A stretch of 34,975 nucleotides of DNA from Bacteroidota bacterium (GTDB lineage Bacteria > Bacteroidota > Bacteroidia > 2-12-FULL-35-15), in the NCBI GenBank assembly GCA_025363555.1, contig JANYDQ010000019.1:1-34975 (forward strand), written 5' to 3'. This document shows, one piece after another, positions 6,306 to 32,650 of this stretch. The translations under genes and the position numbers were made by a program. The stretch's first letter is position 1, and each line of letters starts with the position of its first letter. The notes below the pieces were generated by a model. It was given only the letters and a program-made list of their open reading frames with translations. It searched no databases and had not been told where the DNA came from.

Positions 6306-6905
6306 TTAATTCTTCAAACACTCCACTATTTTCCCTGCTATTTCGTTTTGCCCCGCTTCACTTGTTAAATAATTTTTATCCTTTTCGTTCGAAATAAAAC
6401 CCAGTTCTAAAAGTACTGCCGGGCATTTCGAATTTTTTAAAACAAATAAGTTGGCGTCTATTACTTTCCTTTTTACCAAACTCTCATTTGAAATTACATT
6501 TACTAAACTGTTAGCATTTATAAGTGATGCATTATAAAAATTATTTTCTTTACAAACTGATGCCTGAACACCATTGGTATTTATATCTTTCGAAATATTA
6601 ACATGCAACGAAATTAATAAATCCGGATTCAAGGTATTTATTTTCTCCACCCGCTCATTCAACTCTATAAACTTGTCATCATCCCGAAGCAATACTATTT
6701 CCACATCACTGCTTTTATTCATTTCTTTTATTTTCATGGAAATACTTTCCACTATTTTCTTTTCCGAAGCATCTCCTATGGTTGCTCCATAGTCTTTACC
6801 ACCGTGTGCGGCATCTATCACTATTCGTCTTTTTTCATTTATTGGTTTAAACGAAAAAGATAGTATCAGTACTATCATTCCTAAAAATTTGATTTTGTTT
6901 TTCAT
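6306..6905 (-). CDS. N-acetylmuramoyl-L-alanine amidase (Amidase_3)
   Basis: A zinc amidase that cleaves the bond between MurNAc and L-Ala in peptidoglycan. From the chosen start (MKNKIKFLG) it has 199 residues. It has a hydrophobic signal or anchor at residues 6-19, then the catalytic domain with the zinc ligands His34 (DAAHGG), Glu48 (SEKK) and His101 (ISLHVN) and the catalytic Glu167 (LLELGF). No SPOR, LysM or other wall-binding domain follows, so this is a minimal enzyme. An in-frame ATG lies at 6998, but the -7 box at 6932-6939 falls inside that extension and the signal peptide begins only at 6905, so the shorter form is preferred. Confidence 0.88.
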   Translation of the reverse strand: MKNKIKFLGMIVLILSFSFKPINEKRRIVIDAAHGGKDYGATIGDASEKKIVESISMKIKEMNKSSDVEIVLLRDDDKFIELNERVEKINTLNPDLLISLHVNISKDINTNGVQASVCKENNFYNASLINANSLVNVISNESLVKRKVIDANLFVLKNSKCPAVLLELGFISNEKDKNYLTSEAGQNEIAGKIVECLKN

Positions 6906-6931: not shown

Positions 6932-6939
6932 CAAAAGTA
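6932..6939 (-). promoter_or_regulatory. Putative -7 promoter box for the amidase
   Basis: On the minus strand this reads TACTTTTG, matching TAnnTTTG, about 23 bases from the predicted transcript start to the ATG at 6905. It supports the shorter start. The -33 position reads TTTT rather than TTTG. Confidence 0.5.
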
Positions 6940-7085
6940 AGATTGTTTTTAGTTTTAAAAAAGGAATACCTAAAACTTATAAACATGTTTTTCAACACAG
7001 AACAATTGGGGGACCCTGGGATTGGGCAACCTGTTCAACTAAAAATAAAAAAGCCCCCAAATTATACTCCAAAAACGGCTTATTA

Positions 7086-7347
7086 TACACTTGTAAAAAT
7101 CGTTTATACAATTGTATTTGCCATTTTTACAACTGTATTTATCATTTATACAATTGTAGTTGCCCTTTATACAACCGGATTTGCTCTTTTTACAACCGTA
7201 TTTGCTCATTTTACGACCGTATTAATGATTTATCTTACCGTAAAAAGCATTTTTTCTACCGTATTACTTCTTTTTTGGGTGGTATAAATGCTTTTTTGGG
7301 TGGTATCAACTCTTTTTACCACCGTATGCACAGCAAAACCGGTTGTA
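7086..7347. repeat. Tandem array, 13 units of exactly 21 bp, palindromic TACAATTGTA-type core
   Basis: Ten-base cores start at 7086, 7107, 7128, 7149, 7170, 7191, 7212, 7233, 7254, 7275, 7296, 7317 and 7338, every step exactly 21. The cores at 7107 and 7149 are the perfect palindrome TACAATTGTA. Others read TACAACTGTA, TACAACCGTA, TACGACCGTA and TACCACCGTA, keeping TAC and GTA at the ends. The cores at 7275 and 7296 are both TTGGGTGGTA. Spacers are T-rich and variable. Neighbouring units are more alike than distant ones. The array lies in the divergent gap between the amidase and the LEA-type gene. Because 21 is seven codons, several frames stay open across it as heptapeptide repeats; I do not regard them as genes. 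Confidence 0.9.
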
Positions 7348-7407
7348 TAATAGGGTATATTTACGCTAAAAGAATATAACTAACATAATATCAATAAATT
7401 AACAAGG

Positions 7408-7482
7408 GATAAATTCTAAATTCTAATCTCTAAATTCTAATAATAAACAAAAGATAAATTCTAAATTCTAATCTCTAAATTC
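7408..7482. repeat. Two identical 30-bp direct repeats, 45 bp apart
   Basis: The same 30 bases occur at 7408-7437 and 7453-7482, beginning GATAAATTCTAAATT and built from TAAATTCTAA-like words. Similar AT-rich words recur at 16997-17060 and near 26780. It lies just upstream of the LEA gene promoter. No gene is seen here. Confidence 0.75.
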
Positions 7483-7507: not shown

Positions 7508-7537
7508 TTTGAGGGTGGGTATTATTTAGTAATTTTG
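7508..7537 (+). promoter_or_regulatory. Bacteroidota-type promoter for the LEA-type lipoprotein gene
   Basis: TTTG at 7508-7511 and TAATTTTG at 7530-7537 are separated by 18 bases, matching the -33/-7 consensus of the Bacteroidota housekeeping sigma factor. Predicted transcription starts about 35 bases before the ATG at 7576. Confidence 0.65.
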
Positions 7538-7575: not shown

Positions 7576-8043
7576 ATGAAAAGTTTATGCAGGGTGCTTG
7601 GTGGTTTATTGTTTGTTGTTTTGGTTTCGTGTAGTGATTATAAGGAGGTAACTTTTAGTGGTATTGAAAGTGTGAAAATGCTGAAACTGTCGCAAAACGG
7701 AGCAGAAGCCGAAATAACAGCTAAAATAAAAAATCCGAATAACACTTCGTTCACCATTTACAAATCGGAAATGGATGTAACCATTAATGGATTGAACGCG
7801 GGAAAAGCGCATCTGGAAAAAAATGTGCGAATAACGAAGAACTCGGAAGATACTTATACGTTTGTTATCAAATCCGATTTTTCTGCTTTGAGCATTACCG
7901 ATATTCCGAAAATCATTCAAATGGCAATGAGTAAAAATGTAAAGGTAGGATTGAAAGGAAATTTGCGGGCAGGTAAACTATGGGTGAAACGAAACTTTCC
8001 GGTGGACATTACCCAAAGCGTTCCTTTGAATTTTGTTAAATAA
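7576..8043 (+). CDS. LEA type 2 (WHy-domain) lipoprotein
   Basis: A 155-residue protein with a lipoprotein signal (lipobox LVSC, acylated Cys19) followed by one LEA14/WHy-type beta-sandwich. Visible marks are the strand pattern with KNPNNTSFTIYKSEMDVTING, where the NPN turn is typical, then a long alternating beta region, and the end with FPVDITQSVPL. Such domains occur in small periplasmic or outer-membrane lipoproteins of Bacteroidota and are thought to be structural or stress-related. It has its own promoter at 7508-7537 and stands alone, with a degenerate inverted repeat downstream at 8059-8130. The family call is good and the role unknown. Confidence 0.8.
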   Translation: MKSLCRVLGGLLFVVLVSCSDYKEVTFSGIESVKMLKLSQNGAEAEITAKIKNPNNTSFTIYKSEMDVTINGLNAGKAHLEKNVRITKNSEDTYTFVIKSDFSALSITDIPKIIQMAMSKNVKVGLKGNLRAGKLWVKRNFPVDITQSVPLNFVK

Positions 8044-11426: not shown

Positions 11427-12332
11427 ATGGCAAACCTTAACATCATTTCTTATTTTGATAAAAGTACTGTAAAACATTTGCGTTTACCTTTCTCCTATCA
11501 TTTAATGCCCGTATTTTTATTTGCGTTGAGCCAGGCAAATCAGGTAAACTGGCAACATACAATCATTTCATTTGTAATTCTTCATTTGCTAATATATCCT
11601 TCCAGTAACGGTTATAACAGTTACCAGGACAAGGACGAAACAAGCATAGGCGGATTAAAAACCCCGCCTAAGGTTTCAGAAAATTTATTTTATGCCACCT
11701 TGCTGCTGGATGTGGTGGGAGTGGCATGTGCACTTTTTGTTTCTATCTATTTTTCCATTTTTGTTTTGCTGTATGTTTTGATTTCACGAGCCTATAGCTA
11801 CCGAAATTTAAGAATAAAAAAATATGCTATACCAGGATTTTTAACTGTGTTTTTTTTCCAGGGCGCATTTACTTACCTCATGGTATCCATTGCAGTTAGT
11901 GGCTTTTCCATCGAAAACCTTTTCACTCCCTATACTATTATTTGTATGAGTGTGGCAAGTTTTTTTATCGGCAGTGTGTATCCTCTTACTCAAATATATC
12001 AGCACCTTTCTGATAAAAAAGACGGGGTAACTTCCATTAGTTATAAGTTAGGATATTTGGGCACGTTTATATTTTCAGCAATTATGTTCACAATAGCTTC
12101 AATACTTTTGTTTTATTATTTCGATTTAAAACATCAGCGAATATCGTTGTTTTTATTTTTCATCATGATGTTGCCTGTTCTGTTGCGTTTGTATTTTTGG
12201 TTCAATAATGTTCGTAAAAGTATTGCAAATGCAAATTTTGAAAACACCATGTCCATGAACCTACTTGCTTCTTCGTGTATGAATTTGTATTTTTTAGTCT
12301 TAATTTTGAATAATAATTTTAGCTGGTTCTAA
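11427..12332 (+). CDS. UbiA-superfamily prenyltransferase
   Basis: A 301-residue integral membrane protein with about 8-9 hydrophobic helices. The two aspartate-rich motifs of UbiA-type aromatic prenyltransferases are present in modified form: the first in SNGYNSYQDKDET (Asn64, Asp68, Asp70) and the second in YQHLSDKKDGVTS (Asp196, Asp199). These bind the magnesium-diphosphate of an isoprenoid donor. The preserved acidic residues suggest activity, though spacing differs from the classical NxxxDxxxD. It begins the four-gene polyketide cassette, and its TAA overlaps the ATG of the type III PKS gene by one base, implying coupled translation. The natural inference is prenylation of the PKS product. 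A house-keeping role (menaquinone) is less likely given the neighbours. Confidence 0.8.
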   Translation: MANLNIISYFDKSTVKHLRLPFSYHLMPVFLFALSQANQVNWQHTIISFVILHLLIYPSSNGYNSYQDKDETSIGGLKTPPKVSENLFYATLLLDVVGVACALFVSIYFSIFVLLYVLISRAYSYRNLRIKKYAIPGFLTVFFFQGAFTYLMVSIAVSGFSIENLFTPYTIICMSVASFFIGSVYPLTQIYQHLSDKKDGVTSISYKLGYLGTFIFSAIMFTIASILLFYYFDLKHQRISLFLFFIMMLPVLLRLYFWFNNVRKSIANANFENTMSMNLLASSCMNLYFLVLILNNNFSWF

Positions 12333-13432
12333 TGAGTAAAATAATATCCATCGGAACTGCTGTTCCCCAACATCGCACTGAACAAAAGGAGATACTTGAG
12401 TTTATGCACGCTGCGTATGACAATAATGAAGTTGCATCTCGCAAGTTAAATGCATTGTTTCATAATAGCGGCATTCATACCCGTTATTCTGCTATTCCCG
12501 ATTTTGATAAATCAAGACACCAACACATCTTTTTTAACGGAACGCCAAGTAAGGCAAATGTTGAAAACAGATTGAGCGTGTTTAAAGAACGTGCCATCCC
12601 GCTTGCAATGGATGCAGTACATACTTCTTTCAAAAACATTGATACTACTGTCACCGAGTTTGGAATAACTCATTTAATAACGGTTACCTGCACAGGCATT
12701 CATGCCCCCGGATTAGATGCCGAATTAATATACCAGTTGGATTTACCCAAAGATATTTTTCATACTTCTGTTAATTTTTTAGGGTGCAACGCTGCTTTTC
12801 ATGCCTTAAAAATTGCAGATATGATTTCTAAAACCGATGAGCATGCAAAAATTTTAATCGTGTGTGTTGAATTATGTACACTGCATTTTCAAGCCAAAGA
12901 CAATCATGCTAATTTATTATCAAATACTATATTTGGTGATGGGGCGGCAGCAGTAATTATTACCGCAGATAAGCATCCCGGTTATCATCATCAAAACACT
13001 TTATCCATCAACGGTTTTTATTCATTGCTATTAAACAAAGGAAAGGAATTGATGGGATGGAACATTACCCCTGTTAACTTTGAAATGATTTTGGACGCCA
13101 GGATTCCTGAAGTGCTGGGCGAAGAAGTAAATTCTATTTTTAATAATGCTGTTGCCCGATTTAATGTTCCCCCCCAATCTATTACCAATTGGGCAATACA
13201 CCCGGGCGGTAAAAAAATACTGGATGTTATTAAACGCAAATTAAAGTTGAGTGATGAAGACGTTCTTTCTTCTTATAAAATATTAGATGAATATGGAAAC
13301 ATGTCGTCACCCACCATTTTATTTGTATTGAACGAACTGATGCAGGAAAAAAATAAACAAGGCGAAACTATTTTCTCTATTGGTTTCGGACCGGGACTTA
13401 GTATAGAAACTGCTCTGTTCACCTATGCCTGA
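12332..13432 (+). CDS. Type III polyketide synthase (chalcone/alkylresorcinol synthase-like)
   Basis: A 366-residue homodimer-type enzyme that extends an acyl-CoA starter with malonyl-CoA and cyclises the product. The catalytic triad is intact: Cys152 in NFLGCNAAFHALK, His290 in WAIHPGGKKILD and Asn323 in DEYGNMSSPTILF. The C-terminal signature GFGPGLSIETALF and the segment VTCTGIHAPGLD also fit the family. The starter unit cannot be read from the sequence. Neighbouring methyltransferase and FAD oxidoreductase genes recall the Streptomyces srsABC set for methylated phenolic lipids and quinones. It overlaps the upstream gene by 1 base and the downstream gene by 8. Confidence 0.93.
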   Translation: MSKIISIGTAVPQHRTEQKEILEFMHAAYDNNEVASRKLNALFHNSGIHTRYSAIPDFDKSRHQHIFFNGTPSKANVENRLSVFKERAIPLAMDAVHTSFKNIDTTVTEFGITHLITVTCTGIHAPGLDAELIYQLDLPKDIFHTSVNFLGCNAAFHALKIADMISKTDEHAKILIVCVELCTLHFQAKDNHANLLSNTIFGDGAAAVIITADKHPGYHHQNTLSINGFYSLLLNKGKELMGWNITPVNFEMILDARIPEVLGEEVNSIFNNAVARFNVPPQSITNWAIHPGGKKILDVIKRKLKLSDEDVLSSYKILDEYGNMSSPTILFVLNELMQEKNKQGETIFSIGFGPGLSIETALFTYA

Positions 13433-14159
13433 TAAATTTACTCAACGTTCCTGCCAGGCTGAATTATTGGATGCGCCCAATATCCCGAAAAAATTACTTT
13501 TCCAAAATTTACGCGAACTCGATTTTATTAATAAAACCCTGGGCGGACACTCCATTACACTTTCAGGGATAAAAGAATTACTGACCGATAAAAACAAAAC
13601 CTATCATATCATTGACATTGGCTGCGGGGGTGGCGATGCCATGAAACACATTGCCGACTGGGCAAGAGCAAACCATTATAAAGTGAAACTGACGGGAGTG
13701 GATATGAATGCCGATGCGGTGGATTATCTGAACAGTAATTGCAACGACTATTTGGAAATTACAGGGGTGGTGAGCGATTATCGCGACTATTTGAAATCGA
13801 CCTGCCACACAGATATAGTGCATTGCTCCTTGTTTTGTCATCATTTAAAAGACGATGAATTAACAGAATTGTTTTCGTACATGAAACAATATGCAAAAAT
13901 TGGTTTTGTTATCAACGATTTGCAGCGTCATTGGCTGGCATATTACAGCATTAAAGTATTGACCAGGCTTTTCAATGGGTCTTCTTTAGTAAAAAATGAT
14001 GCCCCTCTATCGGTATTACGTGGATTTAAAAAACCCGAGCTGGTACATCTATTTGAAAAAGGAAAAGTTGAAAATGTAACTATTAATTGGAAGTGGGCGT
14101 TCAGGTATTTGGTGGTTGGTAAAAAATTAAAAGAATTTACACCCCCCTTCACGAATTAA
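13425..14159 (+). CDS. Class I SAM-dependent methyltransferase
   Basis: A 244-residue enzyme with a Rossmann-type SAM-binding domain. Motif I is IIDIGCGGGD (residues 62-71), followed by LTGVDMNADAVDYL as motif II and the post-motif VHCSLFCHHL region. No membrane segment is obvious, though the C-terminal part is basic and aromatic. It overlaps the polyketide synthase gene by 8 bases and precedes the FAD oxidoreductase by 22 bases, so it belongs to the same operon. The likely substrate is the phenolic product of the polyketide synthase (O- or C-methylation), inferred only from context. Confidence 0.87.
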   Translation: MPDKFTQRSCQAELLDAPNIPKKLLFQNLRELDFINKTLGGHSITLSGIKELLTDKNKTYHIIDIGCGGGDAMKHIADWARANHYKVKLTGVDMNADAVDYLNSNCNDYLEITGVVSDYRDYLKSTCHTDIVHCSLFCHHLKDDELTELFSYMKQYAKIGFVINDLQRHWLAYYSIKVLTRLFNGSSLVKNDAPLSVLRGFKKPELVHLFEKGKVENVTINWKWAFRYLVVGKKLKEFTPPFTN

Positions 14160-14181
14160 ACTCAGTTGCCATTAATTACAA

Positions 14182-15318
14182 ATGAACTCTCAAAATAAAT
14201 ACCAGGTAGGCATAGTGGGTGGCGGATTAGCAGGATTAACATTGGCTATTCAACTGGCTGATGCAGGTTATTCCTGTGTGTTGTTTGAAAAAAACAAATA
14301 CCCTTTTCATAAAGTATGCGGAGAATATGTTTCTAAGGAATCATGGAACTTCCTTGAACGATTGGGATTGAATCTTTCTGAAATTCATTTACCTCAAATA
14401 AAAAAACTTAATGTTTCTTCTCCTTCAGGAAAATTATTACAACACAACTTAGACTTAGGAGGATTTGGAATCAGCCGCTATTTACTGGACAGTAAACTTG
14501 CTGAAATTGCCAAAAAAAAAGGGGTTATCCTGTTAGATGATTGCAAAGTGAATGATGTGAAATTTGATGGAATGCTTTTTACGATTCAATCATCAAAAGG
14601 GAATTTTACTTCCGAACTATGCTTGGGGGCGTGGGGAAAAAAAAGCAATATGGATACGAAACTTGCCCGCGCTTTTACATTAATGAACAAAAAAGATAAA
14701 AATTATGTGGGGATAAAATATCATATAAATATTGATTTTCCGGATGATTTAATTGAACTGCACAATTTTGAAAACGGATATTGTGGCATTTCAAAAATTG
14801 AAAATGATACCTATTGCCTTTGTTATTTAACCGATTCGGAAAACCTCAAAAAGTGCAACGGAGACATCAGGCAAATGGAAAAAGAGGTGTTGATGAAAAA
14901 TCCTTTTCTAAAAAAATATTTCACAGAAGCAACATTTTTATTTGAAGAGCCCTTAGCCATTTCACAAATTAAAATTGGTTATAAAAATGCGGTTGAAAAC
15001 AATATACTAATGTTAGGCGATTCCGCAGGTAACATAGCCCCATTAAGCGGAAACGGTATGAGCATGGCAATGAGGAGTTCATTCTTTCTAAATAAATTGT
15101 TGATTGATTATTTCAATAAAGAGATTACCCAAAAAGAATTAGAAAACAAATATGAAGCATTCTGGAAAACCCAATTTAAGAAGCGGGTAGAGTTTTCTAA
15201 AATGTTACAAAAGTTGTTAAAGAATAAATCGCTTACTAATTTTACTATTTCTGTTTTAAAGTTTTTTCCGTTTTTGAGAAATACGGTGGTAAAGTCCACG
15301 CACGGAGAACCATTTTAA
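14182..15318 (+). CDS. FAD-dependent oxidoreductase, geranylgeranyl-reductase/hydroxylase-like
   Basis: A 378-residue flavoprotein of the PHBH-fold group. It has the N-terminal dinucleotide motif GIVGGGLAGL (residues 10-19), the segment KYPFHKVCGEYVS with Cys46, common in geranylgeranyl-reductase-like enzymes, and the second FAD motif MLGDSAGNIAPLSGNGM at about 277-293. Two roles fit. One is hydroxylation of an aromatic ring on the way to a quinone, as SrsC does in Streptomyces. The other is saturation of a prenyl chain, as geranylgeranyl reductases do, which would suit the UbiA gene in the same operon. The sequence alone does not decide. It is the last gene of the tight cassette, and an inverted repeat follows at 15325-15402. 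Confidence 0.83.
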   Translation: MNSQNKYQVGIVGGGLAGLTLAIQLADAGYSCVLFEKNKYPFHKVCGEYVSKESWNFLERLGLNLSEIHLPQIKKLNVSSPSGKLLQHNLDLGGFGISRYLLDSKLAEIAKKKGVILLDDCKVNDVKFDGMLFTIQSSKGNFTSELCLGAWGKKSNMDTKLARAFTLMNKKDKNYVGIKYHINIDFPDDLIELHNFENGYCGISKIENDTYCLCYLTDSENLKKCNGDIRQMEKEVLMKNPFLKKYFTEATFLFEEPLAISQIKIGYKNAVENNILMLGDSAGNIAPLSGNGMSMAMRSSFFLNKLLIDYFNKEITQKELENKYEAFWKTQFKKRVEFSKMLQKLLKNKSLTNFTISVLKFFPFLRNTVVKSTHGEPF

Positions 15319-16221: not shown

Positions 16222-16252
16222 TATCTTGCTTTTTATGCCCCTATTTTATTGA

Positions 16253-16441
16253 TTTTCTATACTTCCTGACTGGTTCTCTTGAGTTCCCAACTGGTTCTCT
16301 TGAGTTCCCGATTGATTCTCTTGGGTTCCCGATTGATTCTCATGAGTTCTCAATTGATTCTTTTGAGTTCCCCAATGGTTCTCTTGAGTTCGCGACTGAT
16401 TCTCATGAGTTCTCGATTAGTTCTCTTGACTTTCTAATCGA
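16253..16441. repeat. Tandem array, eight 21-bp units plus one degenerate unit
   Basis: The anchor TTCTCTTGAGTTC or a close variant starts at 16274, 16295, 16316, 16337, 16358, 16379, 16400 and 16421, every step exactly 21. A weaker unit (TTTTCTATAC) lies at 16253. Variation is mostly A/G or C/T at fixed positions, and two units (16337, 16400) carry the palindrome CTCATGAG. The array fills the convergent gap between the SDR gene and rnhA. On the minus strand one frame reads as heptapeptides of the form (S/L)GTQENQ, without a start codon. I see no gene in it. Confidence 0.9.
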
Positions 16442-16996: not shown

Positions 16997-17060
16997 GTTA
17001 TAAATTCTAAATCCTAAAATCCAAATGTTAATCCGAAATCGAAAATCCGAAATCCGAAAT
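16997..17060. repeat. AT-rich short-word repeat (AAATCCGAAAT type)
   Basis: Words such as TAAATTCTAAATCC and AAATCCGAAATCCGAAAT repeat through this 71-base gap between rnhA and the MarC gene. They resemble the direct repeats at 7408-7482. Confidence 0.5.
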
Positions 17061-20691: not shown

Positions 20692-20734
20692 AAAAATCAG
20701 GGGTAAGATACTGATATTGATTATTTTACTATTT

Positions 20735-21030
20735 TTGGTTTCCTAAAAACCCATGTTCCTTCGTTTGCTTGAAAGGAAGCTTCCTTTTGATGCAATGTTC
20801 CTTCCTTTTTCTGAAAATTTCCCAAATTCTGCTGAAATTTCCCAAATTTCACCCAAATGTTCCCAACTTTACATTGCAATGTTCCTTCCTCGCAATGAAA
20901 TGTTCCTTCCTTTCTCTCCAGGGAAGCAACATTTTTCTTCAAAGAAGATTTTTTTCCGTTTAATGTTCCTTCCTTTCGTGTAAAAGTGGTTTCCTTTCCG
21001 AAAAAAGTGGTTTCCGCCCTCTTTCGGTAA
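20735..21030. repeat. Tandem array of about 13 units of 21 bp, ATGTTCCTTCC-type core
   Basis: TTCC marks occur at 20756, 20798, 20819, 20839, 20860, 20882, 20903 and 20966. The intervening register positions 20777 and 20924 carry GGAAGC, which resembles the motif on the other strand. Two further units (AAGTGGTTTCC) have TTCC at 20991 and 21012, 21 apart but shifted by 4. A perfect 12-bp palindrome AGGAAGCTTCCT lies at 20773-20784. The array fills most of the 429-base convergent gap between rnc and the TlpA-like gene. Open frames across it are heptapeptide repeats such as xxKEGTL on the minus strand and probably reflect the 21-bp period. Confidence 0.85.
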
Positions 21031-32600: not shown

Positions 32601-32650
32601 CCGAGTATACTTGAAATTTTTCCGAGTATACTTGGAAAAATTCCACACGG
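32601..32650. repeat. Short array with 21-bp period, CCGAGTATACTTGG core
   Basis: CCGAGTATACTT starts at 32601 and again at 32622, exactly 21 apart; a degenerate third unit (CCACACGG) starts at 32643. The core is self-complementary over 14 bases except one G-T pair. It lies in the 566-base gap between the DUF2061 gene and uvrC. It is much shorter than the other arrays but has the same period. Confidence 0.6.

Follow-up and report, generated by a model that had tools for sequence, protein, structure and literature searches.

The array of 21-bp units located between an amidase gene and a LEA14-like gene in the window (i.e. the whole stretch of 34,975 nucleotides analysed) is rather likely to be the variable module, present as a solo copy, of a recurrent cassette, which comprises a 21-bp array, an AT-rich leader of about 80 nt and an orphan gene whose product would associate a helical hairpin and an FnIII domain. 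Arrays of this period are dispersed and hypervariable, display dyad symmetry and are linked to the orphan gene; at the window site, the gene is absent and a leader is retained. In usual tandem repeats, the sequence is common and the length varies, whereas in these arrays it is the length that is fixed and the sequence that is free. This fixed period, together with a near-obligate link to an undescribed protein family found in several Bacteroidetes lineages, suggests the existence of a process measuring 21 bp, for which the protein and the array provide a handle for testing. The host is an uncultured freshwater Bacteroidetes, about 12% of whose genome (507 kb) was read directly. All the genomes used are metagenome assemblies, in which arrays may be collapsed or located at contig ends, and gene calls are mechanical open reading frames.

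The window array and its left end are as follows:
7047 to 7085, no strand: left end (head), from sequence comparison, common to the dispersed relatives of the window array
7083 to 7347, no strand: array of 21-bp period, 13 units, of which 12 are full and the last is partial

This is the best-supported extent of the array, which the earlier note had placed at 7086-7347. Each unit carries a core, TACAA(T/C)TGTA or TACCACCGTA, and an 11-bp variable part. Along the array, the core drifts from the perfect palindrome TACAATTGTA to TACAACCGTA and then to TACCACCGTA; it is inverted in place in units 7275 and 7296 (TTGGGTGGTA; reverse complement TACCACCCAA), and the partial unit at 7338 matches the unit 7167-7185 in inverted orientation. 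Judged by eye, the head looks like a leftward-reading terminator (minus strand AAGCC...GGCTTTTTT).

Over 7086-7347, identity reaches 0.668 at lag 21, 0.618 at lag 42 and 0.598 at lag 63, versus about 0.28 at other lags; lags 7 and 14 are at background (0.227 and 0.254), so that the array has no 7-bp heptamer period. The lag-21 segment scores 94, and none reaches 20 in order-3 Markov shuffles of the 507 kb. Nor is the array a CRISPR, as its units are contiguous, degenerate over their entire length and devoid of unique spacers. No register slip occurs within it, which bears out the earlier description of 13 units in strict 21-bp register. The alignment of units that had been proposed as a check also agrees with the view that neighbours are most alike: unit identity is 0.65 between neighbours and decreases to about 0.42-0.49 once units are more than 8 apart (Mantel r = -0.48, p = 3.5e-4). 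The copying of adjacent units as a mode of growth is thus supported here and, more generally, by a significant fall of identity with distance in 26 of the 47 arrays that have at least 7 units. The suggestion that spacing is under selection finds no support, since slips of 1-3 bp are present in 19 of 56 arrays and since the array of the rnc/TlpA gap differs from its 84%-identical copy by 48 substitutions and 3 single-base gaps. A preference for +1 slips was rejected, few arrays being behind the signal (plus slips in 9 arrays, minus slips in 11).

The window array is not specific to the amidase/LEA14 gap. In the 507 kb, 32 ungapped self-match segments were counted at lag 21, 29 at lag 42 and 26 at lag 63; none is found at lag 20 or 22, and shuffled sequence likewise yields none. 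In two species, the density of intergenic arrays of at least 4 units is about one per 17-20 kb, and these arrays make up about 1.1% of the sequence; by extrapolation from this density, each genome would carry an estimated two hundred or more. The unit profiles of 56 arrays are scarcely more alike than column-shuffled profiles and the period is exactly 21; therefore, the period is common and the sequence is not. Besides the array between the amidase and LEA14 genes, the window holds the following ones:
16248 to 16431, no strand: second 21-bp array, unit ATTGATTCTCTTGAGTTCCCG, in the convergent SDR/RNase HI gap
20704 to 21015, no strand: third 21-bp array element (array 20759-21014), in the convergent rnc/TlpA gap, with a full-length relative on G000:C327
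27054 to 27153, no strand: short 21-bp array with palindromic cores AAGTCGCGCGACT / AAGTGGCGCCACT
32601 to 32644, no strand: two 21-bp units with palindromic core AGTATACT

Among gaps of 200-1500 bp, arrays are held by 38% of the convergent, 25% of the divergent and 20% of the tandem ones. A promoter or terminator role was rejected, as arrays lie in gaps of all orientations, and the motifs commonly flanking them proved for the most part to be ordinary terminators. Arrays are common in the species of the window and in its genus relatives G014, G051, G013, G011 and G004, and at least one is present in G046. The stretches sampled in most other genomes showed none, single 20-kb samples being weak evidence, and neither did those of the better-sampled G002, G008, G009, G019 and G023 (60-80 kb each). 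A literature search, with subscription journals outside its coverage, turned up no account of such arrays.

Species-specific genes, encoding for example a 730-aa protein, an MNT/HEPN-like pair, a C5 methyltransferase or a TetR-like protein, are also frequent in gaps with arrays; the sites concerned include the SDR/RNase HI gap of G014, a G011/G013 gap beside the methyltransferase gene and the regions upstream of LEA14. Array-bearing gaps behave as if they were permissive sites for gene turnover.

Clustering of the proteins encoded near arrays revealed genes for proteins of 220-250 aa that read away from the array. A profile built from four array-linked members was searched in 36 genomes of the genus; it matched in seven array-bearing species and in three others (G042, G045 and, as a fragment, G015), and in none of the remaining 26 genomes. 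Among the 24 profile loci with at least 500 bp of upstream sequence, the array is directly upstream in 22 and downstream in none; when three seed loci are left aside, it is upstream in 19 of 21. The seeds were first noticed beside arrays, and the genome-wide profile search is independent of that. With exact start codons and the addition of a locus from a different family of the class, L161 of G027, an array is upstream in 22 of 23 loci, at 27-213 nt (median 82 nt), and no TAnnTTTG promoter lies between array and start codon in the resolved loci. The base rate was taken from 694 other genes, of which 33 (4.8%) have an array no more than 400 bp upstream; the binomial P is then 1.7e-28 for loci that, including orthologues and paralogues, are not fully independent. 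In G045 (L282, L289, L294, L299), nine matches to the orphan gene were found, some of them at contig ends; one intact upstream region has no array and another has one.

Across the class, the orphan protein is patchily distributed, being found in 28 of 395 genomes, including G027, in which arrays had been seen beforehand. Profiles missed the L161 protein of G027 at E 1e-3; by our own reading of its N- and C-terminal sequence, it would belong to the family. About one-sixth of the arrays adjoins such a gene, and the cassette may therefore be a minority arrangement and not the origin of the arrays. At L106 (8738-9112) and L243 (near 16273), the reading frames that start directly after arrays encode small XRE-type proteins of about 123 aa, with a helix-turn-helix and a C-terminal coiled coil; these are possibly a second array-linked gene family.

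For the orphan protein, Pfam gave no match common to the 24 members, only single weak ones, as did PHROG for the same members; NCBIfam gave nothing meaningful for 6 proteins, a sequence search of the PDB nothing convincing, and single-protein searches of phages, plasmids and viral contigs no match. The AlphaFold model of the protein of about 230 aa (pLDDT 92) displays a long helical hairpin followed by a C-terminal FnIII sandwich (residues 134-230); its assignment to FnIII is backed by a VIA Z of about 11 and an rmsd of 2.0-3.0 over 83-92 residues. Foldseek comparison with viral proteins retrieved mostly FnIII domains, many of them in tail proteins. Other array-linked proteins match the 230-aa family in size and position, yet no similarity to it could be detected in their sequences; among them is the 220-aa family encoded beside the window's relatives, whose model (pLDDT 46) is too poor for FnIII to be assigned. 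Grouping both families in one superfamily is a judgement; given this lack of similarity and this poor model, their common ancestry is no more than putative.

The array itself is the hypervariable module of a conserved cassette made of array, AT-rich leader and gene, because near-identical paralogues carry unrelated arrays. Indeed, the paralogues L292 and L296 of G004 are 91% identical in their genes, 96% in their leaders (77 nt) and 92% in the flank beyond the array (49 nt), and their arrays have no similarity. Likewise, L297 and L298 (G014 and G000) share 80% identity in the gene and 79% in the leader, and their arrays are not similar. Replacement is not constant, since in one gap the arrays of G011 and G013 are still homologous (83% over 523 nt), and those of L288 and L301 are still related. 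A bolder proposal, in which we have little confidence, is a diversification system: a dedicated process would keep replacing the 21-bp array upstream of each orphan-gene copy, so that each paralogue would own a private array while leader and gene stay constant, through a machinery reading a fixed two-turn period. The swapping of arrays beside unchanged genes would, if real, represent a mode of bacterial diversification that has gone unrecognised.

The window copy can be placed in relation to this cassette through its relatives, which lie 86-249 bp upstream of a 220-aa gene on G014:C3, G004:C80 and G011:C407. The sequence following the window array is related to such a leader:
7353 to 7405, plus strand: leader remnant (TATATTTACGCTAAAA...ATCAATAAATTAACAA), aligning with the G014:C3 leader that joins a related array to the start codon of the 220-aa gene

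The local alignment of both leaders, which covers only about 55 AT-rich bases, scores 61.5, versus a maximum of 51 in 500 shuffles and at most 49.5 for other leaders. To the right of the remnant lie AT-rich heptamer repeats and then the LEA14 promoter, and no trace of the linked gene is found at the site. The window copy is best read as a solo remnant that would have kept the left end, the array and the start of the leader and lost the gene. On the simplest reading, it derives either from a cassette that lost its gene or from an array-plus-leader copy that arrived without one.

The units of many arrays also display dyad symmetry. An axis exceeding column-shuffled controls was found in 26 of 53 arrays of at least 6 units (z >2), the mean z being 1.78. 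Changes at paired positions are complementary at a frequency of 0.357 versus an expected 0.280 (sd 0.014), and of 0.22-0.29 for slid axes. Folding exceeds expectation (z about -2) equally on both strands, and mismatched pairs show no excess of G-T (231) over A-C (237). A transcribed repeat RNA forming a hairpin every 21 nt might be suggested by this folding and by some paired changes in one dispersed family, yet it is quite unlikely: the folding excess is strand-symmetric, there is no net G-T excess, the covariation term is unfavourable and no gathering-level Rfam match lies within the window. As strand-equal folding without G-T excess favours DNA over RNA, the dyad symmetry fits a property of the DNA; a mutational origin by template switching is also possible. 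Repeats coding for seven amino acids are a still weaker contender, to which we give almost no credence. Two frames are open across the window array and open frames are slightly in excess over arrays generally (1.88 v 1.42), but frames persist open by chance because 21 is a multiple of 3, the differences between relatives display no codon-position bias in the longer comparison, and 1-bp slips change the frame in other arrays.

Helical bending by phased AT blocks was rejected, as no 10.5-bp component of AT phasing rises above controls; the two-turn idea is thus drawn solely from the number 21. In the cassette explanation, the dyads and the two-turn spacing would reflect a dimeric protein bound side by side along a single face of the DNA, and the array would act as upstream control DNA or within the transcribed leader of the linked gene. 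Control of this gene, as protein-binding DNA or as part of the leader, would be its most likely function, given the short distance at which the array lies upstream. More generally, nearly every orphan gene of the array-bearing lineages carries an array of its own, always of 21-bp period, with a unit sequence private to the locus that can change much faster than leader and gene; the arrays grow via the copying of neighbouring units, can be exchanged between loci and spread into gene-less gaps.

The same features could be asked of functionless minisatellites evolving by slippage and unequal exchange, whose common period would be an accident inherited from an ancestral array. Such a neutral origin, which agrees with the similarity of neighbouring units, the presence of arrays in any gap orientation, the existence of dispersed families and the slips of 1-3 bp in 19 of 56 arrays, is nevertheless unlikely. 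Indeed, slippage gives no reason for a period of 21, never 20 or 22, in sequence-unrelated units, and leaves unexplained both the linkage to one protein family and the dyad excess with its paired changes. Were the arrays neutral, they would still reveal a mutational process with a fixed ruler.

Arrays are dispersed between loci. A whole-genome search found no second copy of the window array in its own genome; its homologues were found in G014 (three loci), G051, G011 and G004 (two loci), i.e. at no fewer than seven unrelated loci in four sister species, with different neighbouring genes. They share the left end (window 7047-7085), the unit and, in some cases, the right end TATATTTACGCTAAAA. 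The rnc/TlpA array has its 84%-identical relative elsewhere in the same genome (G000:C327, covering 20704-21015) and is a member of a dispersed family that counts at least 13 copies. As G014, G051 and G013 have only 10-24 bp at the rnc/TlpA junction, which is thus nearly empty there, this array was probably gained in the lineage of the window. In the SDR/RNase HI gap, G000, G014 and G051 each carry an array, and the three units are unrelated. The gap L272 (171-560, G000:C362) is a mosaic of the first half of an rnc-type element and then an array related to the one at 16248 in the window; its orthologues contain a complete element in two sister species. Within the sampled sequence, only 7 of 49 arrays have relatives. 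At L253 (G000:C369), a 21-bp array contains or adjoins an insertion sequence, whose ends are GGGTCAACG/CGTTGACCC and which carries an ISL3-like transposase.

These data make it conceivable, although we would not favour it, that the arrays are the bodies of a mobile noncoding element akin to BOX or MITEs (with a head, 21-bp units and a tail), which a putative enzyme would move in trans. Two families with common ends and bodies at unrelated loci, the nearly empty sites and the convergent-gap bias (38% v 20-25%), as reported for BOX (PMC3049150), speak for such mobility. Against it, no terminal inverted repeat or target duplication was recognised in two array families, a feature that may also set the arrays apart from MITEs, which they resemble as small nonautonomous dispersed elements. 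The 8-bp GGGGTTAT repeat that flanks the rnc/TlpA insert overlaps both stop codons, the sampled sequence contains no relative for most arrays, and counts of REP-type transposases do not track array presence.

Several known systems share part of these characters. Pneumococcal BOX elements, organised as boxA-(boxB)n-boxC and reported to be biased towards convergent gaps (PMC3049150), are likewise noncoding and dispersed, with two ends around a variable number of tandem units, and enriched between convergent genes; in the window family, head, unit and tail recur together at several loci. However, BOX modules have one sequence genome-wide, whereas the 56 unit profiles do not, the arrays having only the 21-bp period in common and being linked to a protein family. 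REP/BIME and REPIN elements are also short palindromes repeated in intergenic DNA, but REPs are a conserved sequence family tied to Y1 (RAYT) transposases, whereas the arrays have no common sequence; a link to REP transposases was rejected, as PF01797 is present in genomes both with and without arrays and the counts are uncorrelated. Phase-variation promoter repeats are also tandem units upstream of a gene family, but here whole unit sequences, and not copy number alone, differ between near-identical paralogues. Heptameric repeats, reported to be the commonest intergenic tandem period in bacteria (PMC6344855), are similarly intergenic and locked to one number, but their units are simple and of period 7, whereas the 21-bp units are degenerate and partly palindromic. 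The window also holds separate heptamer-like repeats, distinct from the arrays: an AT-rich repeat, AAATTCTAAATTCTAATCTC, lies at 7410-7482 and 17001-17060 and occurs at about 30 places genome-wide, sometimes near arrays but mostly not.

The genes and promoters flanking the window array are the following:
6306 to 6905, minus strand: N-acetylmuramoyl-L-alanine amidase (Amidase_3), left neighbour, Pfam E 1.7e-40
6932 to 6939, minus strand: Bacteroidetes-type -7 element TACTTTTG of the amidase promoter, from sequence
7508 to 7537, plus strand: Bacteroidetes-type promoter TTTG-N18-TAATTTTG of the LEA14 gene (TTTG 7508-7511, TAATTTTG 7530-7537), from sequence
7576 to 8043, plus strand: LEA14-like lipoprotein (LEA_2), right neighbour, Pfam E 4.8e-8

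Both promoter-like sites named by the earlier note (6932-6939 on the minus strand, and 7508-7537) were found in the sequence, and the position of the array between them is what would suggest a regulatory array for the divergent amidase and LEA14 genes. Such a role is very unlikely, and the idea that the array could affect both genes receives no support, because its relatives adjoin unrelated genes in other species and arrays are found in convergent, tandem and divergent gaps alike. The same holds for a service to LEA14, whose orthologues elsewhere have unrelated arrays or none at all; in relatives, the arrays found near LEA14 have unrelated sequences, and the gene on the other side is a different one. 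No role of the array for the amidase and LEA14 genes is indicated; in the cassette explanation, the window copy would be a leftover between them, with no dedicated role there. Further along the window, at 11427-15318, lies a cluster of genes that, as named from their translations, encode a UbiA-like prenyltransferase, a type III polyketide synthase, a methyltransferase and an FAD oxidoreductase.
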